Source: Pseudovibrio exalbescens
GTDB lineage: Bacteria; Pseudomonadota; Alphaproteobacteria; Rhizobiales; Stappiaceae
Direction: 5' to 3'
Length of the DNA: 64,000 nt
Assembly: GCF_028737195.1 (NCBI RefSeq)
Contig: NZ_JAQZAJ010000001.1
Span: 868,001-932,000 of the forward strand
The notes below the pieces were generated by a model. The model searched no databases. It saw nothing but the letters and a program-made list of their open reading frames with translations, and was not told the origin of the DNA. Of the stretch, positions 9,924 through 37,938 are shown piece by piece. A program made the position numbers and the translations under genes. Each line of letters begins with the position of its first letter. Within the stretch, counting starts at the first letter, position 1.

Positions 9924-9956
9924 TTGTTCATGCATTTTGGCGCCGTCGGCGCGGTT

Positions 9957-10841: not shown

Positions 10842-12182
10842 CTAGAGGAAAGGGCCCAGTTCTATTTTTGAACCATCATGGAAACGGTTGAAGCGGAAGC
10901 GGGTCATGTCATGACCTGCCGGATTGCCTTCCATGAGATCGCTCATGATGCGCCCTGCCGCCGGGCCAATGCCAAAGCCGTGCCCTGAAAAGCCGGTGGC
11001 GATGAACAGCCCCTTATGATCTGGCGCTTCATCCATGATCGGAATGAAGTCGGGCATCGCATCAATCATCCCGGCCCAGATTTCCACCAGCCGGGTGCCT
11101 GCCAGTTGCGGAAAGCGATCTGCCAACCGGGCCAGCATGGTGGCTTTTGCAGAAGGTGCTGGTTGCGGGTTCATGACCCGCACATTCTCAAAGGGGGTGA
11201 CGTCGTTCCCGGTCCATGACCGTTTGTGCCCCCATGAATCCGGATGCCCCTTGGGCCCTTTAAGCCCCAGAGAAACACCTTTGAAGGACACCTTGTAGGA
11301 CGGCAACCACTTGAACAGGTGCTTGAAAGAGCTAGGCCCGATGAAGTGGTTATGCAGATCGGACAGGGCCAACGAGTAGCCGCCATCCACGCGCCGCCGG
11401 AAGGCGAAGTTGCTGTCTGCGGCGTTGCCGTTGAACACATTTTCTACCGGAGCAGTTGCGGCCACAGTGGCGCGCACGGCAAGTTGGGGCATCTTCACGC
11501 CCATATTGTCTGCAAACAAGGCGGACCAAGCGCCACCCGCCAGAAGGACACGCCCTGCCTTGATGCGGCCCTGCTCAGTGACCGCTCCTGTGAGCTGGCC
11601 GCCTTCAAAGTCCAGCGTGCGCACGGCACAGTCTTCTACGATGGTAACCCCGAGGCGTTCGGCAATGCGGGCGATTGCAGGCACGGCCTGCCACGGCTCT
11701 GCACGGGCATCGCTGGGCGTTACCATGCCGCCGCGCCACCTGCCGGGACGCCCCTGAATCTGCTCCAGAACCTGTTTCTCGGTGAGGATCTGGGTATCAA
11801 GACCATGCTCCTTGGCGAGCTTCATGAATGCTTCGTAGGAAGCCAGGTCCTTTTCGCTTTCGGCCAGATAGTAAACGCCCTGCTGAGTGAAACCGAGGTC
11901 TTCGTTGGTCTCGGTGACGAGCTGCTGCCAGATGCGGTTGGATTCCATGGTGATGGGCAATTCGGCATGGTCGCGCCCCTGCTGACGGATCCAACCCCAG
12001 TTGCGGCTGGATTGCTCCCCGGCCACGCGGCCCTTTTCGCAGACCACCACCTTCACGCCCTTCTTGGCCAGATGATAGGCGGTACTGATGCCGATCACGC
12101 CCCCGCCGATGATGAGCACATCTGTTGCTTCAGGCAGAACGCCAGCAAACTGCCTTGGGGTTTGATCGGAATACGTGACCAT
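10842..12182 (-). CDS. FAD-dependent oxidoreductase, DAO (D-amino acid/sarcosine oxidase) family
   Basis: A 446-residue flavoprotein. The dinucleotide-binding fold is at the N-terminus (LIIGGGVIGISTAYHL, then the acidic end VVCEKG), followed by SSRNWGWIRQQGRD, a motif of a DAO subgroup acting on amino acids or amines. The C-terminal FAD segment is GLFIATGFSGHGFGIGPAAG. The start at 12182 follows GGAG; the frame is open to 12284 but that part overlaps the SDR gene ahead. The 73-bp gap suggests one operon with the SDR. The substrate is probably a secondary or D-amino acid, not determined. Confidence 0.88.
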   Translation of the reverse strand: MVTYSDQTPRQFAGVLPEATDVLIIGGGVIGISTAYHLAKKGVKVVVCEKGRVAGEQSSRNWGWIRQQGRDHAELPITMESNRIWQQLVTETNEDLGFTQQGVYYLAESEKDLASYEAFMKLAKEHGLDTQILTEKQVLEQIQGRPGRWRGGMVTPSDARAEPWQAVPAIARIAERLGVTIVEDCAVRTLDFEGGQLTGAVTEQGRIKAGRVLLAGGAWSALFADNMGVKMPQLAVRATVAATAPVENVFNGNAADSNFAFRRRVDGGYSLALSDLHNHFIGPSSFKHLFKWLPSYKVSFKGVSLGLKGPKGHPDSWGHKRSWTGNDVTPFENVRVMNPQPAPSAKATMLARLADRFPQLAGTRLVEIWAGMIDAMPDFIPIMDEAPDHKGLFIATGFSGHGFGIGPAAGRIMSDLMEGNPAGHDMTRFRFNRFHDGSKIELGPFL

Positions 12183-12255
12183 GGCCATCTCCACCGGACC
12201 GAGCGAAAAAACAAGAGGGCAGCGGGCCGCCCTCCTTAATCTCCCCTGCGCTGGC

Positions 12256-13023
12256 TTAGCGCGGTGCCAAGCGGATGGCGCCATCCAGACGGATGACTTC
12301 GCCGTTCAGCATGGTGTTTTCGCAGATGCTCTCAACGAGTTTGGCGTAGTCTTCACCCGTTCCCAGACGGGATGGGAACGGCACCTGAGCTGCCAGAGAG
12401 TCCTGCACTTCCTGCGGCATGCCCCCGAGCATCGGGGTCTCAAAGATACCCGGTGCAATGGTCATGATGCGCACACCAGACTTTGCCAGATCACGTGCGA
12501 TTGGAAGCGTCATGCCGACAACGCCACCCTTGGAGGCTGAGTAGGCAGCCTGACCGACCTGACCATCGTAAGCGGCAACGGACGCCGTGCAGATGATGAG
12601 GCCACGCTCGCCATCGTCAGTGATTGGCTCCTGCTGAACCATGGAAGTGGCAGCGTGGGTGAGGCAGCGGAAGGAACCGACCAGATTGATGTCGATGACC
12701 TTCTGGAAGCTTTCCAGCGGGTGATGCTCACCGCGGGAGGTTGTCTTCATGCCGATGGCGATGCCAGCGCAGTTGACCAGAATACGCGTGGGGCCATGGG
12801 CCTGTTCCGCGGCTTTCAGACCTGCGGTCACGCTTTCTTCGCTGGTGACATCAACCTTGATGAACAGGCCGGAGATTTCCTCCGCAATTGCCTGACCGGC
12901 TTCTTCGTTCAAGTCAAATAGCGTTACCTTGACGCCTCTGCTGGCGAGCTTGCGTGCCGTAGCTGCGCCAAGACCAGATGCGCCTCCCGTTACGACGGCA
13001 GAAACAGTATTATCGAGTTTCAT
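12256..13023 (-). CDS. SDR-family 3-hydroxyacyl-CoA dehydrogenase type (HSD10-like)
   Basis: A 255-residue short-chain dehydrogenase. It has the NAD-binding motif TGGASGLGAAT, acidic residue in LFDLNEE (favouring NAD over NADP), NCAGIAIG, catalytic Ser in CTASVAAYDGQ, and YSASKGG with Tyr and Lys. The end, IRLDGAIRLAPR, and the short N-terminus resemble type 2 3-hydroxyacyl-CoA dehydrogenases, which oxidise 3-hydroxyacyl-CoAs in beta-oxidation or branched amino acid breakdown. It lies upstream of the FAD oxidoreductase on the same strand, hinting at a shared catabolic route. Family sure, substrate by resemblance only. Confidence 0.9.
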   Translation of the reverse strand: MKLDNTVSAVVTGGASGLGAATARKLASRGVKVTLFDLNEEAGQAIAEEISGLFIKVDVTSEESVTAGLKAAEQAHGPTRILVNCAGIAIGMKTTSRGEHHPLESFQKVIDINLVGSFRCLTHAATSMVQQEPITDDGERGLIICTASVAAYDGQVGQAAYSASKGGVVGMTLPIARDLAKSGVRIMTIAPGIFETPMLGGMPQEVQDSLAAQVPFPSRLGTGEDYAKLVESICENTMLNGEVIRLDGAIRLAPR

Positions 13024-13102: not shown

Positions 13103-14530
13103 TTACGCAAGAACAACAAGCTCTACTGTTCCATTGATTCCTGCAACCTCACCTGACCTAAAGTTCAATTCCGCTACGGAAAATCCTTGTTTTACAGCGG
13201 CATCATAGGTTGTTCGGTCAGTGAGCACCGTAGACCCCACGGCCTTGTTGGCGTCCTCCAATTTCGCTGCGCGGTTGACCGCATCTCCTATGACGGTGAA
13301 CTCAAGCCGATCGTCGACTCCAACAACTCCAACCGTCACTTCGCCAGATGCCACGCCAACGCCGATGCGGAAATCCAATGGCCAGCCCGCCTCCCGAAAC
13401 TGGGGAGCCGCTGCCGTGAGAACCCGGTTCAACTCTACAGCTGCGGCCAGGGCCTTGGCCTCATTGGCCTCGGTTTCTTCAACCGCGCCAAAGGTGGCCA
13501 GAATGCCATCACCCAGAAACTTGTCGATCTGCCCACCGGCCTCGGTGATGATCTTGCCTGCAAGCTGCTGATAAAGCGCCAGAACACGCATGGTGGCCTG
13601 GGGTGTCAGGGTTGCTGCTGTTGAGGTGAAGCTGCGGATGTCGACCATGAGGATGGCGCTGTCGCGGATCATGCCCTGCCCGGCTTTCACCTTTTCATCC
13701 GCCGACACAATGGAGTTGGCGACTTGAGGATCAAAGAAACGGCTGAGATCCTCCACCGCCAGATGCTCTCTGACCGCCGCAAACAGCATGCGCCGGCCGC
13801 GTAACAACGCCAAGGACAGCAGGCCCGTGACAGAGATGATGATGATCAGCTTGTCGAGCTCTGCACCAATGAGAATGGCGTTGCTGGTGAGATAGTCCAC
13901 GTAGTTGCGGGTGATCTTCATGGCGCCCATCTCCGACATGAGGGCGTAAGACACCAACCCCAGCCAACCAACGGTCGCCACAGCGCCTGTCCAGAGCACG
14001 AACCGGGGGTCAAACCGCAAGGCCCGCAGCGCAATGAAAAGAAAAACATACATGAGCGTGGGCGTCTTGAGATAGAACGCCGGGTGCTGCCCATACTGGA
14101 TGTGGAAGGAAAAGATGATGGCCACCAAAAGCGCCACGTCCACACAAACGGAGATGATCAAGTACCAATCCGGCAGCACGGCGCGAAACGAAAGATAAAT
14201 GCGCACGATCGTGAACAGGAAGTAGCCGGTTATGGCATAGGGCACGAAATTGAACCCTTCAGAGCCCTCGGCGCGCGGTGCGATGGCATAAAGCACCGCA
14301 AAAAACACGATGACACCAAGCTGGATGATGCCGATCAACCGCTCGGCAGCCACTTCCTGACGGGCAATTTCCTGACGGACACGGGAGGGAAGAACGCCCT
14401 CTGTCACACGAGGGCCAAGGATGCTCTCCCACACAATGCGCATGCGCCGTTTGGGAGCGACTGCGGGCTCTGGGATAGATTTTTCTTCTGGAAGGCGCTC
14501 GGAGATTTGCTCTCCGGTGGTCTGATGCAT
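13103..14530 (-). CDS. Membrane-bound class III adenylate/guanylate cyclase
   Basis: A 475-residue protein with about six hydrophobic segments (about 65-245) and a C-terminal cyclase catalytic domain (about 275-450). Metal-binding aspartates are in LMVDIRSFT and FLGDGILATFG; the base-selecting Lys is in IDKFLGD, matching adenylate cyclases. In TVIGDAVNRAAKLE the position usually filled by the transition-state Arg is Lys; I recall similar VNLAAKLE forms in other alphaproteobacterial cyclases. The ATG at 14530 follows GGGAG; a TTG at 14545 is possible. It is last in the leftward operon with an MBL hydrolase, a cyclic-nucleotide-binding protein and a degenerate ABC protein. It likely makes cAMP in response to a membrane signal. 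Confidence 0.88.
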   Translation of the reverse strand: MHQTTGEQISERLPEEKSIPEPAVAPKRRMRIVWESILGPRVTEGVLPSRVRQEIARQEVAAERLIGIIQLGVIVFFAVLYAIAPRAEGSEGFNFVPYAITGYFLFTIVRIYLSFRAVLPDWYLIISVCVDVALLVAIIFSFHIQYGQHPAFYLKTPTLMYVFLFIALRALRFDPRFVLWTGAVATVGWLGLVSYALMSEMGAMKITRNYVDYLTSNAILIGAELDKLIIIISVTGLLSLALLRGRRMLFAAVREHLAVEDLSRFFDPQVANSIVSADEKVKAGQGMIRDSAILMVDIRSFTSTAATLTPQATMRVLALYQQLAGKIITEAGGQIDKFLGDGILATFGAVEETEANEAKALAAAVELNRVLTAAAPQFREAGWPLDFRIGVGVASGEVTVGVVGVDDRLEFTVIGDAVNRAAKLEDANKAVGSTVLTDRTTYDAAVKQGFSVAELNFRSGEVAGINGTVELVVLA

Positions 14531-14633
14531 GCAGATGGCTCCCAACTCACACTGGCTCTAACCTTTACGGCCACGCCCTGCGCGCAGAGCACATCTGACG
14601 CCAACAGACTGAGAGTGTGACAAAACCGGAAGC

Positions 14634-15458
14634 CTAGGGGCGGAACACCATTCCTTCCGAGGCGATGAGAGCGCCCGGGTGCCGTTCCTTCGCTGCGATG
14701 CCAATTTCGTCCAGTTCGTCATCCGTTCGCGTCGGGTCGTGGTGGAAGATCACCGGCGTCTTGACGTTTGCCTTGACGCACTGCTCAACCACATGCTCCC
14801 AAGTGGAATGGCCATAGCCTTTGTATTTTTCGTAGTCTACGCTGGTGTACATGCCATCGTAGATCACAACTTCGGCATCACGAATAAACTCCACGACAGC
14901 AACATCAATTTCCGCATCGCCCATTTCATGGTCGGTGATGATGCACATGGACTTGCCATCATAGATAAACTTGTAGCCGCATGCGCCTCCCGGATGGTTG
15001 AGCGGAATGGTGCATATGCGCAGGCCTGAGTCCCGGTCCATGCAGCTACCTGCAATGAACTCACCAAACTCGATGCCCTTCAGGTTCGACGCCGTGATCG
15101 GAAACACAGGCGGAGACATCACGCGGCAGATCACATCCTTCAGTTCGCGGTGCGGGTTGAAACACCCTGCCCAAACCTTGATGTGAAAGCGCGGGTCATA
15201 AGCTGGCTTGAAGAACGGAAGGCCGCATATGTGATCGAGATGAGTGTGCGAAAAGAACAGGTCCACCGGACGCCCTGGCCCTTTGACCAGTTCATAACCG
15301 AGGTTGCGCGCGCCAGAGCCGCAATCGACAACAATAAGGTCATCACCCGCTCTGATTTCAAAGCAGGTCGTTTCGCCGCCATAGCGCAGGGTCCCCGTCC
15401 CCGGCGTTGGGGTTGAGCCGCGCACCCCCCAAATTTTTAGCGAAAACTCGTGCACCAA
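14634..15458 (-). CDS. MBL-fold metallo-hydrolase, candidate cyclic-nucleotide phosphodiesterase
   Basis: A 274-residue metallo-beta-lactamase-fold protein. It opens with IWGVRGSTPTPG and GGETTCFEI, carries the zinc motif SHTHLDHICGLPFF (about residues 70-83), and has further metal ligands in IPLNHPGG, ITDHEMGD and the C-terminal IFHHDP. HTHLDH plus the following residues partly match class II cAMP phosphodiesterases, but RNase Z-like and PhnP-like hydrolases share the core. Its place between a cyclic-nucleotide-binding gene (35 bp ahead) and an adenylate cyclase (103 bp behind) makes a role in removing or processing a cyclic nucleotide attractive. That is inference. Confidence 0.85.
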   Translation of the reverse strand: MVHEFSLKIWGVRGSTPTPGTGTLRYGGETTCFEIRAGDDLIVVDCGSGARNLGYELVKGPGRPVDLFFSHTHLDHICGLPFFKPAYDPRFHIKVWAGCFNPHRELKDVICRVMSPPVFPITASNLKGIEFGEFIAGSCMDRDSGLRICTIPLNHPGGACGYKFIYDGKSMCIITDHEMGDAEIDVAVVEFIRDAEVVIYDGMYTSVDYEKYKGYGHSTWEHVVEQCVKANVKTPVIFHHDPTRTDDELDEIGIAAKERHPGALIASEGMVFRP

Positions 15459-15493
15459 ACTACCTTCCCGATCCTTTCGTCCAGCCTTTTGCC

Positions 15494-15946
15494 TCAGGAG
15501 TGAGCCTTGGCGTCGGCCAGATCTCTTGTCGTTTTTTCGAGACGCTGCGCCAGTACCCTCATAACCTCCAGCGACATCTCCGGAAACTCCTTCAAGAGTT
15601 TAAGAAAATTGTCTTTGGATACGGTCAGCACGTCTGTTGTCCCAACTGCTCTCAATGTAGCGGTTCTTGGGACATCACACAGGATCGCAATTTCACCGAC
15701 AATGGCATGATGACCCACAGTTGCCACGTGTTCTCCGTCCACCACCACCGCGGCTTCACCGGACAGGATGATGAAAGCGCTGTCGCCCACATCTCCTTGA
15801 ACACACATGTCCTCTCCGTCCTGAAACTCCATGCGCTCGCTGATGAACGCCAGCAAGCGGAGTTTGGTCTGGTCGATACCTGAGAACAGCGGCACCTTTC
15901 TCAATGCTGCAACTTCTGTATCGATACTCACTTCATTTTCCTCCAC
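15494..15946 (-). CDS. Stand-alone cyclic-nucleotide-binding domain protein
   Basis: A 150-residue protein consisting of one CAP-type cyclic-nucleotide-binding domain with no DNA-binding helix-turn-helix. The phosphate-binding cassette GEIAILCDVPRTATLRA is complete: Glu for the ribose hydroxyl and Arg-Thr for the cyclic phosphate. The segment VRVLAQRLEKTTRDLADAK forms a C-terminal helix. It lies 66 bp after the ABC gene and 35 bp before the hydrolase gene. Without an output domain it presumably acts by binding a partner, most simply the ABC-like protein. Confidence 0.88.
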   Translation of the reverse strand: MEENEVSIDTEVAALRKVPLFSGIDQTKLRLLAFISERMEFQDGEDMCVQGDVGDSAFIILSGEAAVVVDGEHVATVGHHAIVGEIAILCDVPRTATLRAVGTTDVLTVSKDNFLKLLKEFPEMSLEVMRVLAQRLEKTTRDLADAKAHS

Positions 15947-16012
15947 CCAAACGGAAAGATTTCAATCGGCCACACGGTTCGGACTCACTCACTGCTTCAA
16001 CCCTACAACTTT

Positions 16013-18595
16013 TTAGGAGAAAGACGAAACCCTTCCGTTTTCCAAGAGGATATACGCATCAAATTCATCCTTTACCGGAACGTTGGTGGATCCGAAAATG
16101 AGCGTTCTTCCTTCCAGCAGTTTGCGAATGCCATTGCGCAATTCACGGTCCGTTTCCGTGACACCGGCAATGGTGTCGTCCAAGATCGTGATGGGTGCCG
16201 ACTTCATGAGCGCCCGCGCCACACAGATCATGCGGCGCTGGTGCGCAGACAAGCGCGACCCGGCCACGCCCACGTGGTAGTCCAACCCGGCGCGGCGCAC
16301 GGGCTGGCGCAAGCCCAACTCCATCACAAGCTCGCGCACCACTTCATCAATGCGCTGACGTGCATCACGACGGTCGAGACGCGGACGACCAAACAGCAGG
16401 TTGTCCTCAATGGTGAGCGTTGGCATGTACGTGTCGTTGTCGAAGAAGGTGATGACGTCGTTTTCCGCCCCTACGCGGTCGCGGAACTCCTTGCGGCGCT
16501 TGACGAATTCTTCCTGCAACGCATCATCCATGACACCGAGACGGTGTTTGGACGGCACCAGTTTGAAGGCCAGGTTGATCATGCGGTTGCGGTCCGCGAT
16601 TCTGGTCTTCTTCGGCAGCTTGCCCGCTTTCATCTGGCGCAGAATGCGCTCAAACTCAGGCAAATCTTCCTGCTTAATAAAGGAATATGTGTCAAGAAGT
16701 TCACTGTCGCCACTCACGTCGGAGAACAGCTCGATCATGATTTCAGCGATCTGCTTACCGATCTCGACGAGGCGCTCATCAAGTCCGGTGTCTTCGAGGA
16801 ACTTGACGGCCCGTTTGTTCTTCAACACGTCCTCAAGCTGCAGTGAGCTGTCTTTCGGAACCGCGAAAAACAGGTTCTCCGCAAGGCTTGCAGAGGCGTT
16901 GAAGGTGTCTATGTCCCACAGCTCAACGAGATTGCGCAGTTTCGGATCGGTCTGAACCTTTCCGGCAAGCACGTGCCGGGCATCCAGAATGCGCTGTACC
17001 AGCTCGGCGTCGTGTTCTGGATCGATGACGGATTGAAGGCCGAGGCGATAAAGATCCTTCGACAGACCCAGTACCTCGATGATCTCCAGAACCCGGTTAT
17101 CAAGCTCTTCCGTGTCTTTTGCGCCAGCACGGTCATAGTCCAGCCAGTTCACATCCAGACTGTACTCCGGATTGGCAGTGGCGCGCGCCTCTTCCATCCA
17201 GCGGCGATATTCCGAGGATGAAGCATGCTCTTTGGATGGCTCATCCAGCGGACGGTTGCGCAGACCATAGTAAAGGTTGTCGCGAATTGTGCCGGTCCAA
17301 ACGTGAACCGAACCGCCCACATAAGCGATCTGACGGCCCAACGTGGCCTCACAGAGCCCTTCCAGATTGTGGGTGCCAATCTCGACACGGCCAGCCGTGG
17401 GGCTTAAAAGACCAGCCGCCATCTGGAGCACTTCCGTCCGGCCGGAGCCGTCGACGCCAATCACCGCGAAAGTCTTGCCGCTTTTGGCCGTGAGGTTGAT
17501 ACCGAAGACCTCCTGCCCTGAAGAGCCTCCGGCGAATGTGGCATTGGTCATGACCAGATCGCCATCCAGATTGAAGCTCTCTTCGCCCTTGATGCGCTCC
17601 AGTGGGTAGATGTCCTGCGGATCGAAGTTTTCGACCACAGTCTGATACTTGACGTTCACATCAGCGGTCATCTGGTAGTAAGCCAGAAGCTCTTTCCACG
17701 GAGCTGCCAGATCCTTGTAGGCCGCGATGACTGCGATCAGAGCACCAATGCTGAGCTCGCCCTTGATGACCAGATAGCCGCCGATCAGATAAAAGAAGAA
17801 CGGCGTCAGTTGGTTCATGAAGTTATTCACGAACTTGATGAAGTACTTCCGGTTGTAAATATCGAAGCGAATGCGGAAGTTTTTATAGAGGCGATCAGAC
17901 AGATCCGCCGAGTGCCATGCGGAGGCGTCATTGGCGTGGATCTCCGTGACACCGCCAATGCTCTCCCCGATCTTGTCGGAGATGACACGCACATTGCGTA
18001 CACGCTCGCGAGACAGCAGAACCACTTTTTTCTGCAGTTTCGGGATAATGTAGGCCTGAATTGGATAGGAGCTGATGGCTGCCAGCCCGAGAAGCGGGTC
18101 TTGCAAGAAGATGAAGCCCAGCTGCACCACCAGCATGCCGCCCTGATAAGCTGGCAGAGCGATGGCCTCGCCAATGAAGCCGCCCACATCCTCAACTTCC
18201 GCAGTGATCATCGGGATGATTTCACCGGAGCTGACTTTCCTGAAGTGGGGCAACCGGAAACGCAGAACACGCTGGTAGAGGTCGAACCGCAAGCGGCGCA
18301 ACATGCGCTCGCCGAGGCGGCCCTTGTAGACATTCAGGAACAGCTTGATGCCATTGCTGACCACAACCAGAAACAGGAAAAGAAAACACAGAAAGGCCAG
18401 ATACTCGATCTGGTCCAGTTCAACGCCCATCACTTCACGCGGAAAGGCAGTTCCCTGAATGGCGTCGTTGGTAATCTGCTTTGGAAGATCCAGCAGCATG
18501 AAGCTGACTGGATAGGACAGACAGGTAATCAGCAAAATCGTGATCTGATACCTGGCTGAGTTCTTCCAGATAAACCGAAAGAGGCTTTTCTCCAT
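16013..18595 (-). CDS. ABC-exporter-like membrane protein with a degenerate, expanded nucleotide-binding domain
   Basis: An 860-residue protein. Residues 1 to about 310 are a type I exporter membrane domain. The ATPase part is odd. The Walker A-like loop GVDGSGRT (380-387) has Arg for Lys; the Q-loop position reads IAYVGGSV with no Gln; the signature is LSAHQ (782-786); Walker B is ITILDD (802-807) with Asp for the catalytic Glu; the H-loop region (LIFGSTN) lacks the His. About 340 residues separate the Q-loop from the signature, and the segment that normally follows the Q-loop appears three times (TIRDNLYYG 436-444, ASLAENLFF 569-577, TIEDNLLFG 728-736). It is probably a poor ATPase or none, perhaps regulatory. 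First gene of the leftward operon. Confidence 0.85.
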   Translation of the reverse strand: MEKSLFRFIWKNSARYQITILLITCLSYPVSFMLLDLPKQITNDAIQGTAFPREVMGVELDQIEYLAFLCFLFLFLVVVSNGIKLFLNVYKGRLGERMLRRLRFDLYQRVLRFRLPHFRKVSSGEIIPMITAEVEDVGGFIGEAIALPAYQGGMLVVQLGFIFLQDPLLGLAAISSYPIQAYIIPKLQKKVVLLSRERVRNVRVISDKIGESIGGVTEIHANDASAWHSADLSDRLYKNFRIRFDIYNRKYFIKFVNNFMNQLTPFFFYLIGGYLVIKGELSIGALIAVIAAYKDLAAPWKELLAYYQMTADVNVKYQTVVENFDPQDIYPLERIKGEESFNLDGDLVMTNATFAGGSSGQEVFGINLTAKSGKTFAVIGVDGSGRTEVLQMAAGLLSPTAGRVEIGTHNLEGLCEATLGRQIAYVGGSVHVWTGTIRDNLYYGLRNRPLDEPSKEHASSSEYRRWMEEARATANPEYSLDVNWLDYDRAGAKDTEELDNRVLEIIEVLGLSKDLYRLGLQSVIDPEHDAELVQRILDARHVLAGKVQTDPKLRNLVELWDIDTFNASASLAENLFFAVPKDSSLQLEDVLKNKRAVKFLEDTGLDERLVEIGKQIAEIMIELFSDVSGDSELLDTYSFIKQEDLPEFERILRQMKAGKLPKKTRIADRNRMINLAFKLVPSKHRLGVMDDALQEEFVKRRKEFRDRVGAENDVITFFDNDTYMPTLTIEDNLLFGRPRLDRRDARQRIDEVVRELVMELGLRQPVRRAGLDYHVGVAGSRLSAHQRRMICVARALMKSAPITILDDTIAGVTETDRELRNGIRKLLEGRTLIFGSTNVPVKDEFDAYILLENGRVSSFS

Positions 18596-18867
18596 TAGGA
18601 ACCTGGTCCACTCATTCTCATTGGCAGGGCGCTGGCATACGGGGTGCCGCGCTGATCTTCGGGCACAGCGCTGGCCGCACCCGACCTTCGGCCTGTGCTA
18701 CAACCTGCGCTACAGTAGAGATTCAACTATTAACAATCCAGAAGAGACTCAATCCATTTTGACAATCTAAGTCATTGCGGATCAGCCACTATGCTTTTAG
18801 TGTCGCAGCAAAAGCGCCGAGTGTACTGGTTGGCGTAAGGGTATCCTCCTATAATTATGATGAGTGC
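18596..18867. other. Divergent intergenic region between ABC-like and glycosyltransferase operons
   Basis: This 272-bp gap must hold the promoters of both operons. The right half is AT-rich, with a run around 18717-18770. I could not assign hexamers or an operator with confidence. An in-frame ATG at 18775 exists for the rightward gene, but homology starts at 18868. Confidence 0.5.
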
Positions 18868-20109
18868 ATGACTTCCAACGCCCTCAAGGTTCTGATTTAC
18901 AGCCACGATACATTCGGCTTGGGCCACTTGCGCCGCTGCCGTGCGATTGCACAGTCTCTGGTGGGCACATTCTCGGAAATGTCCGTGCTCATCCTCTCCG
19001 GATCACCGATCATAGGCAGCTATGAGTTCAAGTCTCGGGTGGACTTTGTCCGTATCCCCGGCGTCATCAAGCTGCGCAGCGGGGATTACACATCGCTGTC
19101 GTTGCACTTGAACATCGATCACACGCTTGCCATTCGTTCGTCCATAATCGAGCACACGGCTAAGGTTTTTAATCCGGACATATTTATTGTTGATAAGGAA
19201 CCCTTGGGATTGCGCGGGGAAGTGCTGCCGACGCTGCAATACCTTGCCGACACGCCGACTCAGCTGGTGCTGGGTCTGCGCGATGTGATGGATGATCCGG
19301 AAGTTTTGCGCGAAGAATGGGACCGCAAGAACGTGGACCCGGCGCTGATCGACCTTTACGACGAAATCTGGGTCTACGGCCCGTCTTTCATGAACAATCC
19401 GCTGGACGGCATGGGCCTGCCGCAGTCCGTTCATGACAAGACGCTTTTCACTGGTTACCTGCAGCGCTCGTTGCCAAAGGTTTCTGCCAACTTTACGCCG
19501 CCGTTCGATGGCGCGCCGTACATTCTGGTTACCCCTGGCGGGGGTGGTGATGGCATTGAACTGGTGGACTGGGTGATGCGCGCCTATGAATCTCGTGAGC
19601 GCCCCCTCTTCCCAGCCCTGATTGTGCTGGGCCCCTTCATGCCCTCAGAGAAGGTGGAGAACTTTGCCGCACGCGCCGAGGAGCTGCGCGATGTGGAAGT
19701 GATCCGCTTTACACCGGAAATGGAGCCCTACATTGACCGGGCGACGGCCGTTGTGGGCATGGGTGGCTACAACACGTTCTGTGAGATCCTGTCGTTTGAC
19801 AAGCCGACCTTGCTGGTGCCGCGGGTTGTGCCGCGCCGCGAGCAAGCGATCCGCGCCGAGCAAGCCAAACGCCTTGGCCTTGTGCGCGTGCTGCCGATCG
19901 ACGCCTATCCTGACATCGACCTGATGCTGGATGCGCTTTCCGAGTTGCCGGGGGCACCGGCACCTTCGCAGGCGCAGTCCAGAACCGTTCTCGGCGGTCT
20001 TGAGGTTATCAATGCGCGGGTTGATGAAATCTACCGTGCACGCGATATAACCCCAGTCTACAAAGAGGACACCCCCGTGCTGCAATTGGCCGCTCATCGG
20101 CCTTCCTAG
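18868..20109 (+). CDS. GT-B glycosyltransferase, MurG/GT28-like
   Basis: A 413-residue cytoplasmic glycosyltransferase. The N-terminus has the glycine motif GLGHLRRCRAIA of GT28/MurG-like enzymes, and the C-terminal domain has the donor-site pattern TPGGGGDG and GMGGYNTFCEILSFDKPTLLVPR, as in enzymes using UDP-HexNAc or similar donors. The ATG at 18868 is taken because the domain begins at once after it. It is first of five tightly packed rightward genes, 13 bp before the next. The related gene at 22474 shares its layout, so the operon holds two paralogous pairs of transferases. Donor and acceptor are unknown. Confidence 0.85.
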   Translation: MTSNALKVLIYSHDTFGLGHLRRCRAIAQSLVGTFSEMSVLILSGSPIIGSYEFKSRVDFVRIPGVIKLRSGDYTSLSLHLNIDHTLAIRSSIIEHTAKVFNPDIFIVDKEPLGLRGEVLPTLQYLADTPTQLVLGLRDVMDDPEVLREEWDRKNVDPALIDLYDEIWVYGPSFMNNPLDGMGLPQSVHDKTLFTGYLQRSLPKVSANFTPPFDGAPYILVTPGGGGDGIELVDWVMRAYESRERPLFPALIVLGPFMPSEKVENFAARAEELRDVEVIRFTPEMEPYIDRATAVVGMGGYNTFCEILSFDKPTLLVPRVVPRREQAIRAEQAKRLGLVRVLPIDAYPDIDLMLDALSELPGAPAPSQAQSRTVLGGLEVINARVDEIYRARDITPVYKEDTPVLQLAAHRPS

Positions 20110-20122
20110 GTTCAATAATTAC

Positions 20123-21346
20123 ATGTCACGTATCGCTGTAGTGGTGAAAGGCTACCCACGCCTTTCTGAGACGTTCATTGCCCAAGAGATTCTGGGGCTG
20201 CAGAACAGGGGCATTGGCCAGCTCATCGTTGCGCTGCGCAAACCCTATGATCCTTACATTCACGAGCTGCACCGCCAGATCAAAAGCGACGTGCTGTACT
20301 TGCCCGAGTACATCAAGGATGACCCCAAACGGGTAGCCAAGGCCATTTCCTGGGCAAAGAAACAGCCGACCTATGACAAGGCACGGGCGCTGTTTGAGGC
20401 TGACCTTGCCAATGAAAACAACAACAACCGCAAGCGGCGCTGGGGGCAAGCCTGTGTGTTTGCCCATGAGCTGCCGGAGGATGTGACCTGGATTCACACC
20501 CACTACCTGCACACGCCGTGTTCGGTTTCGCGCTATGCTGCGCACCTGTCCGGCCGCAAGTGGTCGTTCTCTGCCCATGCAAAGGACATTTGGACCTCTC
20601 CTGAGTGGGACCTGAAGGTGAAGCTGGCAGACGCGGCATGGGGAGTGACCTGCACCCAGGTGAACGTGGACTATCTGCAAAGCCTGATGGATGCACCGGA
20701 GAAAATAGAACTGGTCTACCATGGCTTGGATTTCAGCTCATTTCCGGTAAAGGATGGCGCGCGGCAACCGCTGACGGGGGCTCAAGAGACCCCGGTTACA
20801 CTGCTTTCCGTGGGCCGGGCCGTTGAGAAAAAGGGCTACGACACCCTGCTTCAGGCTTTGAAAAAGCTGCCGCAGGACCTGAATTGGCGCTTCGTTCACA
20901 TCGGCGGCGGCGAGCTTGCGGACAAGCTGAAAACACTTGGTGAGAAGCTCGGCATTGCAGACCGGATTGAGTGGCGCGGAGCCCAGCCGCGCGAGGAAGT
21001 CATCAAAGCCTGTATGCAGGCAGACCTGTTCGCTCTGCCCTGCAAGATTGCCAAGACCGGCGACCGGGACGGCCTGCCAAATGTTTTGATGGAAGCGCAG
21101 GCCATGGGCCTTTGCTGCGTTTCTACGCAGGTTTCTGCCATTCCTGAGCTGATTGAAGATGGCAAGACCGGCCGTCTTGTGGCACCGGAAGCGCCAAAGG
21201 AATTGGCAGATGTGCTTCTAGAGCTTATCAAGGATCCGCAGCAGCGTGACAGGCTGGGCCAGGCAGGCTCGGCGCATGTGCGCAGCAGCTTTGAAACCGC
21301 ACCGGGACTGGACAGGCTGAAAGCCAAGTTCGACACCGTTTTATGA
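20123..21346 (+). CDS. Glycosyltransferase family 4, WcaL/colanic-acid-type
   Basis: A 407-residue GT4 enzyme. The opening VVKGYPRLSETFIAQEI is characteristic of WcaL-like transferases of exopolysaccharide clusters. HTHYLHTPCSVSRYAA is the acceptor-side segment; the donor-side motifs are LSVGRAVEKKGYDTLL and the E-x7-E-type segment in DGLPNVLMEAQAMGLCCVST. It follows the previous gene by 13 bp and precedes the next by 8 bp. It likely adds a sugar to a lipid-linked or nascent surface glycan at the inner face of the membrane. Confidence 0.9.
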   Translation: MSRIAVVVKGYPRLSETFIAQEILGLQNRGIGQLIVALRKPYDPYIHELHRQIKSDVLYLPEYIKDDPKRVAKAISWAKKQPTYDKARALFEADLANENNNNRKRRWGQACVFAHELPEDVTWIHTHYLHTPCSVSRYAAHLSGRKWSFSAHAKDIWTSPEWDLKVKLADAAWGVTCTQVNVDYLQSLMDAPEKIELVYHGLDFSSFPVKDGARQPLTGAQETPVTLLSVGRAVEKKGYDTLLQALKKLPQDLNWRFVHIGGGELADKLKTLGEKLGIADRIEWRGAQPREEVIKACMQADLFALPCKIAKTGDRDGLPNVLMEAQAMGLCCVSTQVSAIPELIEDGKTGRLVAPEAPKELADVLLELIKDPQQRDRLGQAGSAHVRSSFETAPGLDRLKAKFDTVL

Positions 21347-21354
21347 GATAGAGC

Positions 21355-22473
21355 ATGAAGCTGGCCTTCACGGCACCCATGAAGCCTTTGGATGATCCGA
21401 CGCCCTCGGGAGACCGGACGCTGGCACGGCTCATTGTCAGGGCGTTGGAGCAAGGCGGGCATGAGGTGGAGGTGCCGACCCGGTTCCGAAGCTGGCGCAA
21501 GAACGGGGGCGTTGCCATGCAACAGGCCCTCAAAGACGAAGCGCTTTGTGAAGCCGAAGCCATTGCCGCCAGATGGCGCAGCACCGGGTACAAGCCGGAT
21601 GCGTTCTTGACCTATCATCTCTACCACAAGGCACCGGACTGGATTGGCCCGGCGCTTTCTGAGGAGTTCGGCTGTCCCTACCTCGTGATTGAGGCCAGCC
21701 GCGCGCCCAAACAAGCCACTGGCGAGTGGTCTTTCGGTTTTGCCGAGGCAGACAAGGCCCTTTCCGCGGCGGATCAGGTGGTGGCCCTGCACCGCGCAGA
21801 TGCACAGTGCTTGCGCGACGTTGTTTGCGACAAACTCACCATCATTCCGCCCTTCATTGATGCAGACCCGTTTTTGGGAGCGCCTCCCGTTGCCCTTCGA
21901 GAAAACGGCAAGCTCAAGCTTCTGGCAGTGGGCATGATGCGGCCGGGCGCGAAGGTGCAGTCTTATGCCGTGCTGGCGCAAGCCTTGAGGCTCCTGCGCG
22001 CTGAAAACTGGAGCCTGACCATCGTTGGCGATGGACCGGAATTCCATGAGGTACGCGAGATGTTCAGCGGCCTGCCGGTTACTTTTCTGGGACCAAAGGT
22101 GGGCGATGACATTCCACAGGTCTACGCCGACCACGACGTGCTGGTGTGGCCGGCCATTCGTGAGGCCTTTGGCTTCGTGTTCCTTGAAGCGCAGGCCTCG
22201 GGCCGACCGGTGATTGGCGGGGACACGTTTGGTGTGCCCGACATCGTGGAGGATGGGAAAACCGGTTTTCTATCTCCTGAAGGGGATGTGAGCGCAATGG
22301 CGGCCAACATTGAGCGCATCCTTGAACGCCCAGAGCTGGCACCCCAAATGGGCAGTGCCGCGCGGGCGCACATTCTGAACCGGCACAGCCTTGCCGCTGG
22401 CACACAGAACCTGAACATGCTGCTGGCGCGGGCCCGCGAAATTTTCAAAGAAAAGAACACCCGGAAAACATAG
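21355..22473 (+). CDS. Glycosyltransferase family 4
   Basis: A 372-residue GT-B transferase. The N-terminal domain contains PLDDPTPSGDRTLARLIVRAL, seen in GT4 enzymes that bind the acceptor; the C-terminal domain has LAVGMMRPGAKVQSYAVLA, VGDGPEFHEV and the donor motif IREAFGFVFLEAQASGRPVIGG. It abuts the next gene with no gap, a sign of translational coupling. Specificity cannot be assigned. Confidence 0.88.
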   Translation: MKLAFTAPMKPLDDPTPSGDRTLARLIVRALEQGGHEVEVPTRFRSWRKNGGVAMQQALKDEALCEAEAIAARWRSTGYKPDAFLTYHLYHKAPDWIGPALSEEFGCPYLVIEASRAPKQATGEWSFGFAEADKALSAADQVVALHRADAQCLRDVVCDKLTIIPPFIDADPFLGAPPVALRENGKLKLLAVGMMRPGAKVQSYAVLAQALRLLRAENWSLTIVGDGPEFHEVREMFSGLPVTFLGPKVGDDIPQVYADHDVLVWPAIREAFGFVFLEAQASGRPVIGGDTFGVPDIVEDGKTGFLSPEGDVSAMAANIERILERPELAPQMGSAARAHILNRHSLAAGTQNLNMLLARAREIFKEKNTRKT

Positions 22474-23625
22474 ATGAAAGCCTTTATCCACGTTCAGCAC
22501 CTTTTGGGAACCGGACATGTGGTGCGTGCAGCGGCAATTGGCCGTGCTCTTGCCGCCCGCGGTGTGGAAGTGACCCTTGCCTCGGGCAACACGGTGCCTC
22601 CCACGCTGAACACCCATGGTTTGAACGTGGTCGAATTGCCGCCCGTTCGCAGCCCGGATGCGGTCTTCGACAAGCTGGTGACCCCAGACGGCACACCAAT
22701 TGACGACAGCTGGTTCGAGCGGCGCACGCAAACAACCCTTGAGGCTTTTCAGGCCGACGACTTCGACATTCTGCTGACCGAAACCTACCCATTCGGACGC
22801 CGTCAATTCGAGCAGGAATTGTCTCCGTTGCTGCGCTTTGCCAAGGCACAGGAACGGCCGCCACTGATTGCCTCCTCCATTCGCGACATTCTGGTGCGCA
22901 AGCAGCAGCTTTGGAAGGAGGAATGGATGGCCAAGCAGGCGGCGCGATACTACGACTGTGTTCTGGTGCATTCCGACCCGGAGTTCGTGCGGCTTTCCGA
23001 CAGTTTTCCTTTTGCACAGCAGGTGGAGCACCTCCTGCGCTATACGGGGTATGTGGACGCCCAGCGCGACACAATCGCCCCCTCCTCTGATGGTCATGAC
23101 GAGGTGATCGTGTCATGCGGTGGCGGCGCTGTAGGGGCGCAGTTGCTTGAAAGTGCGCTGATTGCACGGTCCTTGAGCCGCAGGGCCGGTGACACCACGT
23201 GGCGCGTGCTCGTGGGCCATGACATCAATGAGGAGACGTTTGCCGCGCTGCAACTGAAAGCCCATGAGGGCTGCATCGTCGAGCGCGCCCGGCCGGACTT
23301 CCCCGAGCTTTTGACCCGGGCTCGGCTTTCCGTTTCGCAGGCTGGATACAACACCGTTCTCGACGTCCTTGTTGCGGGCGTTGCCGCTGTGTTCGTGCCG
23401 TTTGCTCAGGTGCGTGAGACCGAGCAGGCCCAGCGGGCCGAAGCTTTGGTGCAAAGACAGCGTGCGGTCAGCATTCCGGAGGACACGTTGACACCAGAGG
23501 GCCTTGCCGCTGCCGTGGATGATGCGCTTTCCCTGCCCCGCTCCGACATGACCGTGCTGCTTGGCGGTGCCGAGCGCAGCGCCGATATTCTGATTGCCGA
23601 GCGTGAAAGACAGGTGATTTCATGA
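22474..23625 (+). CDS. GT-B glycosyltransferase, MurG/GT28-like (second copy type)
   Basis: A 383-residue protein. GTGHVVRAAAIGRALAARG at the N-terminus parallels the GLGHLRRCRAIA of the first gene of the operon; VSCGGGAVG and SQAGYNTVLDVLVAGVAAVFVPF form the donor site. The ATG comes directly after the preceding stop codon and the end overlaps the next gene by four bases (ATGA). It probably transfers a nucleotide-activated hexosamine or related sugar. Confidence 0.87.
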   Translation: MKAFIHVQHLLGTGHVVRAAAIGRALAARGVEVTLASGNTVPPTLNTHGLNVVELPPVRSPDAVFDKLVTPDGTPIDDSWFERRTQTTLEAFQADDFDILLTETYPFGRRQFEQELSPLLRFAKAQERPPLIASSIRDILVRKQQLWKEEWMAKQAARYYDCVLVHSDPEFVRLSDSFPFAQQVEHLLRYTGYVDAQRDTIAPSSDGHDEVIVSCGGGAVGAQLLESALIARSLSRRAGDTTWRVLVGHDINEETFAALQLKAHEGCIVERARPDFPELLTRARLSVSQAGYNTVLDVLVAGVAAVFVPFAQVRETEQAQRAEALVQRQRAVSIPEDTLTPEGLAAAVDDALSLPRSDMTVLLGGAERSADILIAERERQVIS

Positions 23626-24425
23626 CCGCCGCTGATGCACTGGCCCTTGACGCCTTTCGCAGCTCTCTGCGCGACCATCTGGACTGGTTTGCTGCGCGCG
23701 GCCAGAAGGTGAGATTCTGGTGGCGAGATGACGATGCCATCGAGCCAACGGACGATCTGGAACGCCTGCTTGACATCGCCAAGCGCTATTCAGTGCCCGT
23801 AGCTCTGGCGGTGATCCCCAAACACGCCAAGGAAACTTTGGCCGCACGTCTTGAAACCAGTGATGAGGCGTGGGTTCTCCAGCATGGCTGGCAACACAAG
23901 AACTTTCAGCGCAAGGACTTGGGTGAGAAGGCAGCCGAGCTGGGCAGTCGCCGGGACCTTGATGAGATCACGACGCAACTCGAAGAAGGCTTCGCTCGCC
24001 TTTCAGAGCTGTTTCCCGACCGCTTCATTCCTGCTGTGGTGCCGCCGTGGAACCGGATTGATCCGGGTGTGGTGCGCCGTCTGGAAGGCATTGGGCTTAA
24101 AAGTCTTTCCACCTTCACATGGATGCACCCCTACTCCCTCGCGCAGGTGCAGTCGCATGTGGACATTATCAAGTGGAAGAAGAACAACCGCTTTATCGGC
24201 TGGAAGAGTGCCATGGACCGGTTTGATCTGCAGTTCATGCGCCGTCGCACCAACCCGCAGGAGCCGCTTGGCATTCTGACCCACCATCTGGCTCATGAGG
24301 AAGGCTGCTACACCTTCCTTGAGGAGTTCCTCAGCATTGCCGCCAATCACCCCGGCGCTGCGTGGCCTGCGCTTCCCGAGCTGTTTGCCGAGGAAGTGGC
24401 CCGCGCCAAGGCAATTCGAACCTGA
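23622..24425 (+). CDS. Polysaccharide deacetylase-like protein
   Basis: A 267-residue protein of the carbohydrate esterase 4-like fold. The catalytic motifs are recognisable though diverged: WWRDDDA (Asp for base and metal), QHGWQHKNF with the spaced histidines, PPWNRID, and ILTHHLAHE near the end. No signal peptide is visible, so it would act in the cytoplasm, unlike secreted chitin or peptidoglycan deacetylases. It is last in the operon, overlapping the preceding gene by four bases, and could remove an acetyl group from a sugar added by the neighbouring transferases. Metal binding is not certain. Confidence 0.82.
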   Translation: MTAADALALDAFRSSLRDHLDWFAARGQKVRFWWRDDDAIEPTDDLERLLDIAKRYSVPVALAVIPKHAKETLAARLETSDEAWVLQHGWQHKNFQRKDLGEKAAELGSRRDLDEITTQLEEGFARLSELFPDRFIPAVVPPWNRIDPGVVRRLEGIGLKSLSTFTWMHPYSLAQVQSHVDIIKWKKNNRFIGWKSAMDRFDLQFMRRRTNPQEPLGILTHHLAHEEGCYTFLEEFLSIAANHPGAAWPALPELFAEEVARAKAIRT

Positions 24426-24935: not shown

Positions 24936-25526
24936 TTAGCGGACTGGCTTTACCAACCGCATGCGCCATGTGACGTTCTTCTTGTCAGAGCGCAGTGCGT
25001 AGTCGTCCAGCACTTCCCACTTGCTTTCATCATCCGTTGCTTCCCAAAGCTTTGCGATGAGCTTGTTGGCACCGGACTCAGGCCGCTTTGGCGAATACAT
25101 GGAAAGGGCGATGACACCATCTTCCTTGAGGTATGGCACGTAGCGGGCCACAACCGCGCCCGGGTCCTCGGCAAAGTGCAGCACTTCATTGAAGATGATT
25201 GCGCTGAAAGTCTCCCCTTCGTTTGGCTCGAAGGTATGCATGTCCCCTGCCCGCAAAGACGCGATGGATGGGTCGACATCAGCAATCTCAAGAGCTGCAG
25301 GGGCAAGGTCCATGCCCACATAACGCTTCACGCCCATTGGTGCGAGGCGCTCATAGAGCAGACCTTCGCCGCAGCCGATGTCCAAAATCTCTTCATTGGA
25401 ATTGGTCAGTGCCAACCACATGCCAATAATACCGTAGCGCCCGCTTTCCGGTAGTGAGCGCAGGAATGCCCAACGGCCCTGACGATATTCCTCATCCCAG
25501 CCATCAGCGGTACTGGCGTTTTTCAT
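24936..25526 (-). CDS. Class I SAM-dependent methyltransferase
   Basis: A 196-residue Rossmann-fold methyltransferase. The SAM-binding motif I is LDIGCGEGLLYERL, the acidic end of strand 2 is YVGMDLAP, and motif IV is FSAIIFNEVLHF. The fold occupies residues 40-150 and the substrate part is small. It faces the glycosyltransferase operon from the other strand and could methylate a sugar of the same product, but nothing in the sequence shows this. Monocistronic with its own terminator. Confidence 0.85.
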   Translation of the reverse strand: MKNASTADGWDEEYRQGRWAFLRSLPESGRYGIIGMWLALTNSNEEILDIGCGEGLLYERLAPMGVKRYVGMDLAPAALEIADVDPSIASLRAGDMHTFEPNEGETFSAIIFNEVLHFAEDPGAVVARYVPYLKEDGVIALSMYSPKRPESGANKLIAKLWEATDDESKWEVLDDYALRSDKKNVTWRMRLVKPVR

Positions 25527-25591: not shown

Positions 25592-26767
25592 TTATTTATA
25601 AGGGTCGGCGGCGTCACGTAAACCGTCGCCAAGGAAATTGAATGCAAGAACCACGATAATGATTGGGATCACCGGAGCCATGAGCCACGGGTACAACGTC
25701 ACAACCGAAATGTTCTGAGCCTCATTTAGGAGCACCCCCCACGATACGGAAGGCCTGCGCAGCCCCAAATTCAGGAAGGACAGCGCGGTCTCCCCCAGGA
25801 TCATGGCCGGGATCGACAGACTGGCCGAAGCGATGAGGTGTGAGGTGAAGCCCGGCAGCAAGTGCTTGAAGATGATGCGGCGCGGGCGAGCGCCCATCAT
25901 CACGGCGGCCTTGGCATACTCCTCCTCGCGCAGAGAAAGCAGCTTTGAGCGCACAGCACGTGCAAGCCCCGGCCAATCAAGCAGCCCCAAAATGATGGTG
26001 AGGCCAAAATAAATCCAGACCGGTGACCACGTTACGGGCAGCGCAGCCGAAAGCGCCATCCAGAGCGGCAACTCCGGCAAGGAGCGCATGATCTCGATGA
26101 CACGCTGGATCAGGCTGTCGATGATGCCGCCGAAATAGCCAGCCAGCCCCCCAAGCAGGATGCCGAGGAACATGGAGATGGTGATGCCGACGATGCCCAC
26201 GGTGAGCGACAGGCGCGCGCCGTAGATCAGCCCGGAGAGCTGGTCACGGCCCAAACGGTCTGTGCCTGCAAGGAACATGGTGCCATCCTGCGCAGGACAG
26301 ACGAACCGGAAATCCATATCCCACAGGCCCCAGAACCGGTAGGTGCTACCAGAGCAAAAGAACCGCAAGGGCTGCACCTGGCTGGTATCTTCTTCATAGA
26401 CCCAGCGCAGGGTCTCCAGATCCACATCCGCCTTGTAGCCATAGACAAACGGCCCGACAAAAGAGCCTTCATGGAAGAGGTGCAAGGCTTGCGGCGGGGC
26501 GTAGAGGAAGTCGTTGTTGCGCTCGTTCGGTGTGTATGGCGCAATCAGCTCGGCAAATGGCACGCACAGGTAAAACAGAATGAGGATGATGCCAGACCAG
26601 ACCGCCAGCTTGTGGCGGCGGAACTTCCACCACATGATCTTCCACTGCGACGCCTGATAGTAGCGCTCCTGCTCGGGCGTCAGCACGTCGGTTGAGGTGG
26701 GGTCAAACGGTTCCGGGTTGACGTAATGCGGTTCTTCGCGCGGTGTCTGACGGATACGGTTGGTCAT
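25592..26767 (-). CDS. Oligopeptide-type ABC transporter permease (OppC-like, long form)
   Basis: A 391-residue inner-membrane permease. The first membrane segment (LAVWSGIILILFYLCVPFAEL) is followed by about 110 periplasmic residues (with FVGPFVYGY and FLAGTDRLGRDQLSG) before the remaining helices; ordinary OppC proteins have a much shorter loop there. The ATPase-contacting EAA-like loop is in EYAKAAVMMGARPRRIIFKHLLPG. It overlaps the OppB-like gene ahead by four bases. It forms the transport channel with that protein, fed by the binding protein at 27836 and driven by the double ATPase at 29725. Confidence 0.93.
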   Translation of the reverse strand: MTNRIRQTPREEPHYVNPEPFDPTSTDVLTPEQERYYQASQWKIMWWKFRRHKLAVWSGIILILFYLCVPFAELIAPYTPNERNNDFLYAPPQALHLFHEGSFVGPFVYGYKADVDLETLRWVYEEDTSQVQPLRFFCSGSTYRFWGLWDMDFRFVCPAQDGTMFLAGTDRLGRDQLSGLIYGARLSLTVGIVGITISMFLGILLGGLAGYFGGIIDSLIQRVIEIMRSLPELPLWMALSAALPVTWSPVWIYFGLTIILGLLDWPGLARAVRSKLLSLREEEYAKAAVMMGARPRRIIFKHLLPGFTSHLIASASLSIPAMILGETALSFLNLGLRRPSVSWGVLLNEAQNISVVTLYPWLMAPVIPIIIVVLAFNFLGDGLRDAADPYK

Positions 26768-37906: not shown

Positions 37907-37938
37907 AGACTTTACCCACTATCTAGATTTGTCCCTTG

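Follow-up and report, generated by a model that had tools for sequence, protein, structure and literature searches.

A conserved alphaproteobacterial glycan cluster that pairs a degenerate exporter-type ABC protein with a cyclic-nucleotide-binding protein

Within a 64,000-nucleotide stretch of the Pseudovibrio exalbescens genome (contig NZ_JAQZAJ010000001.1, positions 868,001 to 932,000; hereafter the window, from a genome assembled into 26 contigs totalling 4.39 Mb), genes for four glycosyltransferases (GTs) and a candidate deacetylase are found beside those for an exporter-type ATP-binding cassette (ABC) membrane protein, a free-standing cyclic-nucleotide-binding protein (CNB), two nucleotidyl cyclases, and an Opp-type importer. 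We put at about 0.5 the probability that these genes form a system, switched by cyclic nucleotide, for making, exporting, and recapturing an envelope glycan. The link between the ABC protein and CNB appears to be new, as no prior description was found in the accessible portions of the literature searched, including those of the paper on the phazolicin-protecting polysaccharide (PPP) cluster of Sinorhizobium meliloti (PMC10128002); that cluster had already been touched on by genetic work.

In the scheme that we favour (where we infer that nucleotide is bound and gates the ABC protein, in which direction it does so, what the product is, and what importer and hydrolase do), the cytoplasmic glycosyltransferases GTa to GTd would assemble an oligosaccharide, the CE4-like protein DAC would remove acetyl groups from it, the exporter-type ABC protein would carry the glycan over the inner membrane, and the importer would take back the product or its fragments. 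A signal at the envelope would lead the membrane cyclases to raise the nucleotide, which CNB, a subunit that regulates the ABC protein, would bind, changing that protein's state, and a metallo-beta-lactamase (MBL)-fold enzyme may terminate the nucleotide signal. The product would be the counterpart of the uncharacterised PPP polysaccharide of S. meliloti. CNB would be explained most simply as the means by which nucleotide controls the ABC step. More tentatively, the ABC protein and CNB could represent a new class of cyclic-nucleotide effector, in which an exporter-type ABC protein has abandoned canonical ATP hydrolysis, added two Q-loop/helical copies, and come to be switched by a subunit or domain that binds cyclic nucleoside monophosphate (cNMP), in the manner of cyclic-nucleotide-gated channels, controlling an envelope glycan across much of the Alphaproteobacteria. 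If this is true, cyclic AMP and cyclic GMP (cAMP, cGMP) in these bacteria would act not only through transcription but also directly on a target in the cell envelope, some components of the protective and uncharacterised PPP pathway would be named, and the ABC protein would offer a case in which transport and the sensing of nucleotide may be dissociated from ATP hydrolysis. The ABC family occurs in 132 of 385 alphaproteobacterial genomes, and a result in one species would therefore inform many.

The cluster and its distribution

A first-pass annotation of the window had described nine genes and a divergent region of 272 bp, and all nine open reading frames (ORFs) were confirmed with that order and spacing. 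The figure of 272 bp holds if GTa starts at the ATG at 18868 (its longest ORF starts at 18775), and the rightward gaps from GTa to DAC are 13, 8, 0, and -4 bp. The gene set was right as far as it went; the importer, a methyltransferase, and a second cyclase had been missed, and the conserved unit extends through these genes, all on the minus strand, to 33736. The features are as follows.

13103 to 14545, minus: CYC, membrane class III nucleotidyl cyclase, 480-aa ORF (Guanylate_cyc 46.3 bits, cut-off 21.9)
14634 to 15458, minus: MBL, MBL-fold phosphodiesterase-like hydrolase, 274 aa (Lactamase_B_2 by Pfam, invariant His/Asp)
15494 to 15946, minus: CNB, free-standing cyclic-nucleotide-binding protein, 150 aa (cNMP_binding 60.5 bits)
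15659 to 15697, minus: CNB phosphate-binding cassette, residues 84-96 (alignment conservation)
16013 to 18595, minus: ABC, exporter-type membrane protein with degenerate, enlarged nucleotide-binding domain, 860 aa (PF00664 ABC_membrane 64.9 bits; ABC_tran)
17435 to 17458, minus: ABC Walker A, GVDGSGRT, with Arg in place of Lys (sequence)
16436 to 17260, minus: ABC insertion from Q-loop to signature, with extra X-loop/helical copies (hhalign)
18596 to 18867, no strand: divergent intergenic region, 272 bp (ORF boundaries)
18868 to 20109, plus: GTa, glycosyltransferase with GT28 C-terminal domain (PF04101 34.2 bits against 22)
20123 to 21346, plus: GTb, group 1 glycosyltransferase (PF00534 124.7 bits)
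21355 to 22473, plus: GTc, group 1 glycosyltransferase, positional counterpart of SMb21252 (PF00534 96.7 bits)
22474 to 23625, plus: GTd, MurG-like glycosyltransferase (PF04101 46.8 bits)
23622 to 24425, plus: DAC, candidate CE4-like cytoplasmic deacetylase (conserved Asp/His; Pfam sub-threshold)
24936 to 25526, minus: S-adenosylmethionine (SAM)-dependent methyltransferase (PF08241 50.8 bits)
25592 to 26767, minus: importer permease C (OppC_N, BPD_transp_1)
26764 to 27789, minus: importer permease B (BPD_transp_1)
27836 to 29728, minus: importer solute-binding protein (SBP), 630 aa (SBP_bac_5 187.8 bits)
29725 to 31620, minus: importer ATPase, two ABC domains with canonical Walker A and signature motifs (sequence; two ABC_tran stretches)
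31865 to 33736, minus: CYC2, second membrane class III cyclase, 623 aa (Guanylate_cyc 92.9 bits)

The distribution of the cluster was followed in two sets of relatives. The DAC-anchored set comprises the best 80 of 495 relatives and is biased to close kin, with many Stappiaceae, and the ABC-anchored set comprises 50 regions of at most 40 kb, taken from 49 genomes among 132 that were picked from so as to cover different families and to have long contigs. A profile of the ABC protein (E <= 1e-60) matched those 132 of 385 alphaproteobacterial genomes, about one third, and 26 of 299 genomes sampled across the phylum, one of the matches, a partial one, lying outside the class; the system is mainly alphaproteobacterial. 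GTa was found in 127 of the same 385 genomes, with both proteins in 125, ABC alone in 7, GTa alone in 2, and neither in 251 (Fisher P 8e-90, kinship between genomes ignored). Among the ABC-anchored regions, 32 hold at least three GTs, 32 at least three importer genes, 31 both, and 26 DAC. In the DAC-anchored set, ABC, CNB, the four GTs, and DAC are together in 63 loci, 60 of which also have MBL and 28 of these 60 also CYC; ten of the remaining 17 loci are contigs shorter than 14.5 kb. Because of this co-occurrence and these neighbourhood counts, the arrangement is not due to chance and is a real, widely conserved system, which supports the first-pass view that the glycan pathway, the ABC membrane protein, and the protein that binds cNMP belong to one unit. 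That annotation had also held that the idea would fall if the genes drifted apart in relatives: the four GTs stay largely together with ABC, CNB, and the importer, whereas a minority of loci are without ABC and CNB or without the GTs.

The ABC protein and its probable partner

The transmembrane part of the ABC protein is of exporter type, and its fold matches MsbA, PCAT1, and a cyclic-glucan exporter (CGT), in a structure model with a predicted local distance difference test (pLDDT) score of 82.6 that falls below 50 at residues 157-174 and 287-297. The nucleotide-binding domain was compared in an alignment of 114 rows (the 63 DAC-anchored loci, the 50 ABC-anchored regions, and the window), many of them close relatives. 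The Walker A Lys position is taken by Arg in 77 rows and by Lys in 33, and Lys followed by Ser or Thr, for which the window has GRT, is kept in only two (G277 and G267), leaving 112 of 114 without it. At the position of the catalytic Glu after Walker B, Asp is found in 53 rows, as in the window, and Glu in 44, and no constant His marks the H-loop across the 114 rows. The degenerate ATP site is thus a property of the family, and the first-pass label of a "degenerate ABC-like" protein was apt well beyond the one sequence from which it was drawn.

An insertion of about 270 residues between the first Q-loop and the signature carries two extra X-loop/helical copies, an architecture of which we know no other example. 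The Asn of the three motifs (440, 574, and 732) is kept in 113, 114, and 114 of the 114 rows, and hhalign related the copies to each other (copy 2 to copy 3, E 2.5e-14; copy 1 to copy 2, 1.2e-6; copy 1 to copy 3, 1.5e-5; probabilities 98, 91, and 80%), with control alignments of the copies against the membrane part giving E values of 0.67, 0.1, and 0.19. Mean conservation is highest in the membrane half (0.59, against 0.45-0.52 in other parts of the protein), and columns conserved in at least 90% of rows number 9 of 125, 10 of 149, and 3 of 70 in the extra-copy segments and 23 of 330 in the membrane part. Some genomes (G331 and G154) have two or three ABC paralogues of this family with long open frames, and the two copies examined in G331 are both fused to a divergent CNB.

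These features bear on the question of whether the protein transports at all. It might instead be a membrane receptor or scaffold, in which nucleotide-bound CNB and the enlarged domain organise or switch the GTs while another machine exports the product. The absence of a Walker A Lys followed by Ser/Thr from 112 of 114 rows would suit such a role, as would the extra copies with their invariant residues and a share of highly conserved columns close to that of the membrane part, and a motif test of ORFs of 450-1300 aa in the 50 regions listed no canonical exporter besides the importer ATPase; a second canonical half-transporter adjoining ABC was likewise sought there and rejected. Yet it is the membrane half that is on average best conserved, as would fit a working membrane pathway, and some heterodimeric ABC exporters still transport with one degenerate site, though the partner site in the present case is not known. 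We regard the scaffold as unlikely, if worth keeping in mind.

The cNMP_binding domain is the sole Pfam family found on CNB, and no helix-turn-helix of the CRP/FNR type was found by Pfam in its 150 residues. The phosphate-binding cassette is intact, with G84, R94, and A96 in all 107 aligned rows, E85 in 106, and T95 in 100, and the top solved relatives are domains of cGMP- and cAMP-dependent kinases. A CNB above threshold is present in 46 of the 50 ABC-anchored regions, with a weaker fused CNB in three and none in one (G370), and in 49 of the 50 it adjoins ABC or is fused to it. The fusion, to the C-terminus of ABC, was seen in 11 of 116 proteins, and Pfam detected the domain in all eight that were submitted. 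Scattered occurrence had hinted at several independent fusions; this is not supported by a FastTree phylogeny of 115 rows, in which the 11 fused proteins lie on one side of one branch (support 92), so that one fusion or fission event is enough. Because of the fusion and the near-constant adjacency, the likeliest role of CNB is as a domain or subunit of the ABC protein, and from sequence we infer that it would bind cNMP and gate its partner.

A free-standing cNMP-binding protein near cyclases also recalls anti-phage cyclic-nucleotide systems of the Pycsar type, and CNB and both cyclases do match Pycsar cyclase or effector models in PADLOC. Pfam, however, found no TIR or other effector or second domain on CNB, PADLOC gave no match for ABC, MBL, GTa, GTd, or DAC (GTb and GTc were outside the scan), and the linkage is to a glycan pathway; a defence role was rejected, there being no cNMP-activated effector domain on CNB, and it has in our view scarcely any chance of being correct.

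Cyclases, hydrolase, and the nucleotide

In class III cyclases a pair of Asp residues binds metal, a Lys and a Thr are of the adenine-recognising type, and an Asn and an Arg serve the transition state. Both cyclases of the cluster exceed the PF00211 cut-off and have the two metal Asp and the adenylate-type Lys and Thr. CYC has Asp302, Asp346, Lys342, Thr417, and Asn424, with Lys at 428, a position normally taken by Arg; among the region cyclases, 8 of the 10 with a printed motif show this Lys too. CYC2 has Asp446, Lys486, Asp490, Thr557, Asn564, and Arg568. Cyclase ORFs are enriched around ABC: the 50 regions contain 19, where the density in the genomes themselves (589 matches in 211.7 Mb) predicts 5.21 (Poisson P 2.5e-6), with 14 against 3.81 in GT-cluster regions and 5 against 1.41 in the others, a ratio that is approximate, the regions having been counted with a custom profile and the background with Pfam.

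The MBL-fold protein has His71, His73, Asp75, His76, His155, Asp176, and His239 invariant in 34 rows. Its motif HTHLDH fits HxHLDH, the motif of class II cNMP phosphodiesterases, and the same His and Asp are typical of RNase Z, which provides the best NCBIfam and PDB sequence matches. A cNMP phosphodiesterase family is absent from its Pfam matches, and the NCBIfam model NF041851 gives 24 bits against a cut-off of 400. In a structure model (pLDDT 90.4) the nearest structures are YhfI, RNase Z, a PhnP-type diphosphatase, and yeast PDE1, with Apyc1 further down. On the model, MBL may be a phosphodiesterase-type enzyme, with cyclic nucleotide as no more than a possible substrate.

The first-pass annotation had seen in these genes a complete and locally controlled module that makes, binds, and perhaps breaks cAMP. 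In such a loop, confined to the cluster, a local cyclase would make cAMP, CNB would sense it, and MBL would hydrolyse it, and this accords with the cyclase enrichment, with the presence of MBL in 18 of the 50 regions and in 60 of the 63 core-holding DAC-anchored loci, and with a fold near PhnP-type enzymes, yeast PDE1, and Apyc1. It accords poorly with RNase Z being the best match by sequence and YhfI the top one by structure, with the score of the phosphodiesterase model, and with the absence of cyclase, and equally of MBL, from most ABC-anchored regions. Moreover, there are seven class III cyclases in the genome, and the nucleotide is therefore not private to the cluster. A closed loop of this kind is accordingly doubtful: cyclase and MBL are enriched or present nearby and not constant members, the data establish neither local control nor hydrolysis of cAMP by MBL, and the choice of cAMP itself is called into question by Thr95 of CNB, set against two adenylate-type cyclases. 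In eukaryotic kinases, a Thr after the cassette Arg favours cGMP. As for transcription, the Clr consensus, as given in the accessible part of PMC5498481, has no match on either strand of the 272-bp divergent region; direct Clr-type control of this region was rejected, the three matches in the window lying elsewhere and being about as many as in shuffled sequences.

The glycan pathway and its counterpart in S. meliloti

DAC falls below the Pfam cut-offs (PF01522, 20.5 against 23.1 bits; DUF2334, 19.9 against 26) and keeps Asp36-38, His88, His92, His179, Asp181, and His221-222 in at least 98% of 81 rows, a metal-type Asp/His/His arrangement. In relatives the importer genes travel with the glycan genes, ATPase first, then SBP, permease B, and permease C. 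Solved relatives of its SBP are 5ipw, annotated as oligopeptide-binding (282 bits), the pectin-oligosaccharide binder SPH1118 (243), and an alpha-galactoside-binding protein (94), the last two being binders of oligosaccharides. No polymerase or outer-membrane exporter was among the conserved families identified, several unlabelled families having remained without identification. The soluble GTs and cytoplasmic deacetylase, together with the exporter-type ABC protein and the kinship of the importer SBP to oligosaccharide binders, suggest that the product would be a glycan of modest size that leaves for the periplasm or surface and is in part taken up again. The SAM-dependent methyltransferase, with relatives in 37 of the 80 DAC-anchored loci and 1 of the 50 ABC-anchored regions, is part of a local version of the cluster.

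A stretch of the S. meliloti megaplasmid pSymB has counterparts of GTa to GTd, DAC, MBL, a cyclase, the four importer genes, ABC, and CNB. All are in the stretch from strain R14 (L151), and GTc, DAC, and MBL, about 18 kb from ABC, lie outside that from strain 2011 (L088); GTc matches its counterpart at 433 bits. Counting annotated gene order from anchors in the accessible parts of published work, namely SMb21247-21249 (PMC5498481), SMb21257, a "hypothetical adenylate cyclase, truncated protein" (PMC12542648), and SMb21272 of the LacI family (PMC11387232), this stretch would be the PPP cluster, SMb21252-SMb21271, with GTc as SMb21252, DAC as 21253, MBL as 21254, GTa as 21265, ABC as approximately 21269, and CNB as approximately 21270. 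The PPP cluster was published in 2023 (PMC10128002), and the first-pass statement that no such system had been described thus has to be withdrawn. According to the portions of that paper available to us, mutants in smb21252 and smb21265 are about eightfold more sensitive to the peptide antibiotic phazolicin (minimum inhibitory concentration (MIC) 0.18 versus 1.47 ug/mL), protection being published there for S. meliloti only, and work cited in it has cAMP regulating genes potentially involved in PPP. Seven of nine PPP genes are reported, in the accessible part of PMC10315480, to be up-regulated under Myxococcus predation. The gene set is common to the PPP cluster and the window, whereas the order differs and the PPP cluster adds a nucleotide-sugar dehydrogenase, a DUF3095 protein, and an FkbM methyltransferase. 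The DUF3095 gene (L151:25727-26929) lies between the MBL gene and the dehydrogenase; in strain R14 the GTa and GTd frames look split (L151:37226-38574 and 39630-41011), each being single in strain 2011. Two other S. meliloti loci were considered as the match and rejected, SMb20804-20813 as the wrong locus and the MsbA2 operon because papers and gene numbers point to a different one.

Several points weigh against a switched system of synthesis, export, and recapture. Of the 50 ABC-anchored regions, 18 have at most two GTs in the stretch read; 16 of the 17 genomes behind these regions have GTa in the genome, and one (G266) does not. Five loci have GTs and importer genes with no ABC or CNB in the stretch read (L068, L073, and L082 from gammaproteobacterial metagenome-assembled genomes (MAGs), L074 from a proteobacterial MAG, and L071 from Afifella marina), three of the five being on contigs shorter than 14.5 kb; the full-length DAC-anchored stretches without both ABC and CNB are L071, L080 (Ensifer), L082, and L084 (Aurantimonas). 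Loci of this kind speak against an obligatory link, and ABC may lie elsewhere in those genomes. Cyclase and MBL, found in 17 and 18 of the 50 ABC-anchored regions, are absent from most. The nucleotide could be cAMP or cGMP, since Thr95 of CNB is of a kind that favours cGMP in eukaryotic kinases and both cyclases have the adenylate-type Lys and Thr. The ATP site being degenerate and no partner exporter having been found nearby, the powering of export is unexplained. The best SBP match is the one annotated as oligopeptide-binding. Finally, in the accessible portions of PMC10128002, PPP as a surface polysaccharide is itself only proposed, and cyaA insertions were depleted in the phazolicin screen, but cyaA is the chromosomal gene smc00339, outside the cluster, and the phazolicin MIC of its mutant fell only twofold.

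Alternatively, this might be an ordinary glycan cluster with the signalling genes as bystanders, CNB having some other partner and cyclase and MBL being merely near. The presence of cyclase and MBL is variable, and some GT clusters are without ABC and CNB in the stretch read. The ABC-CNB fusion, the near-constant pairing, and the co-occurrence of ABC with GTa argue to the contrary, and we consider the bystander explanation improbable.

Among known systems, the ABC protein of the window has its membrane domain and overall fold in common with MsbA-type and cyclic-glucan exporters (MsbA, PCAT1, CGT); unlike them it has lost ATP-site residues, has two extra X-loop/helical copies, and has a CNB paired or fused. 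The families TIGR03896 and TIGR03797, which we take to be bacteriocin-type export proteins pairing cNMP-binding and ABC modules, are distant and sub-threshold NCBIfam matches (27.3 of 161 and 75.2 of 709 bits); in the window family, unlike these, CNB is C-terminal when fused, the linked genes are glycan genes, and no peptidase domain was found by Pfam. The S. meliloti MsbA2 operon (SMb21188-21191) likewise joins an ABC exporter and GTs for an uncharacterised polysaccharide, but differs in gene numbers and neighbours, and no CNB is mentioned in the accessible parts of the papers (PMC3687685, PMC12239276). The SBP is related over its full length to that of SPH1118-type oligosaccharide importers, which serve pectin assimilation according to the available part of PMC9314435, whereas the window importer sits in a biosynthetic cluster.

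Two further families were noted in the 32 GT-cluster regions. A histidine phosphatase family defined by BLAST is present in all 32, with PF00300 confirmed in G160 (L141:14286-15095) and in Azospirillum thermophilum; in the two regions inspected the gene lies between GTc and GTd, no relative was found in the window, and its presence would fit a pathway that, in the common form of the cluster, passes through a phosphorylated primer or intermediate. The other family, with relatives in 27 of the 32, is represented in G261 (L145:11445-12113) by a small protein that has hydrophobic stretches, matches no Pfam family, and is encoded between deacetylase and importer. The flanks of the cluster in the window are ordinary, with a dihydroxy-acid dehydratase family member, an FAD oxidoreductase, and a short-chain dehydrogenase/reductase (SDR) at 7831-13023, and a CoA-transferase III, aminopeptidase N, a PAS histidine kinase, and GlnE at 33871-43497.

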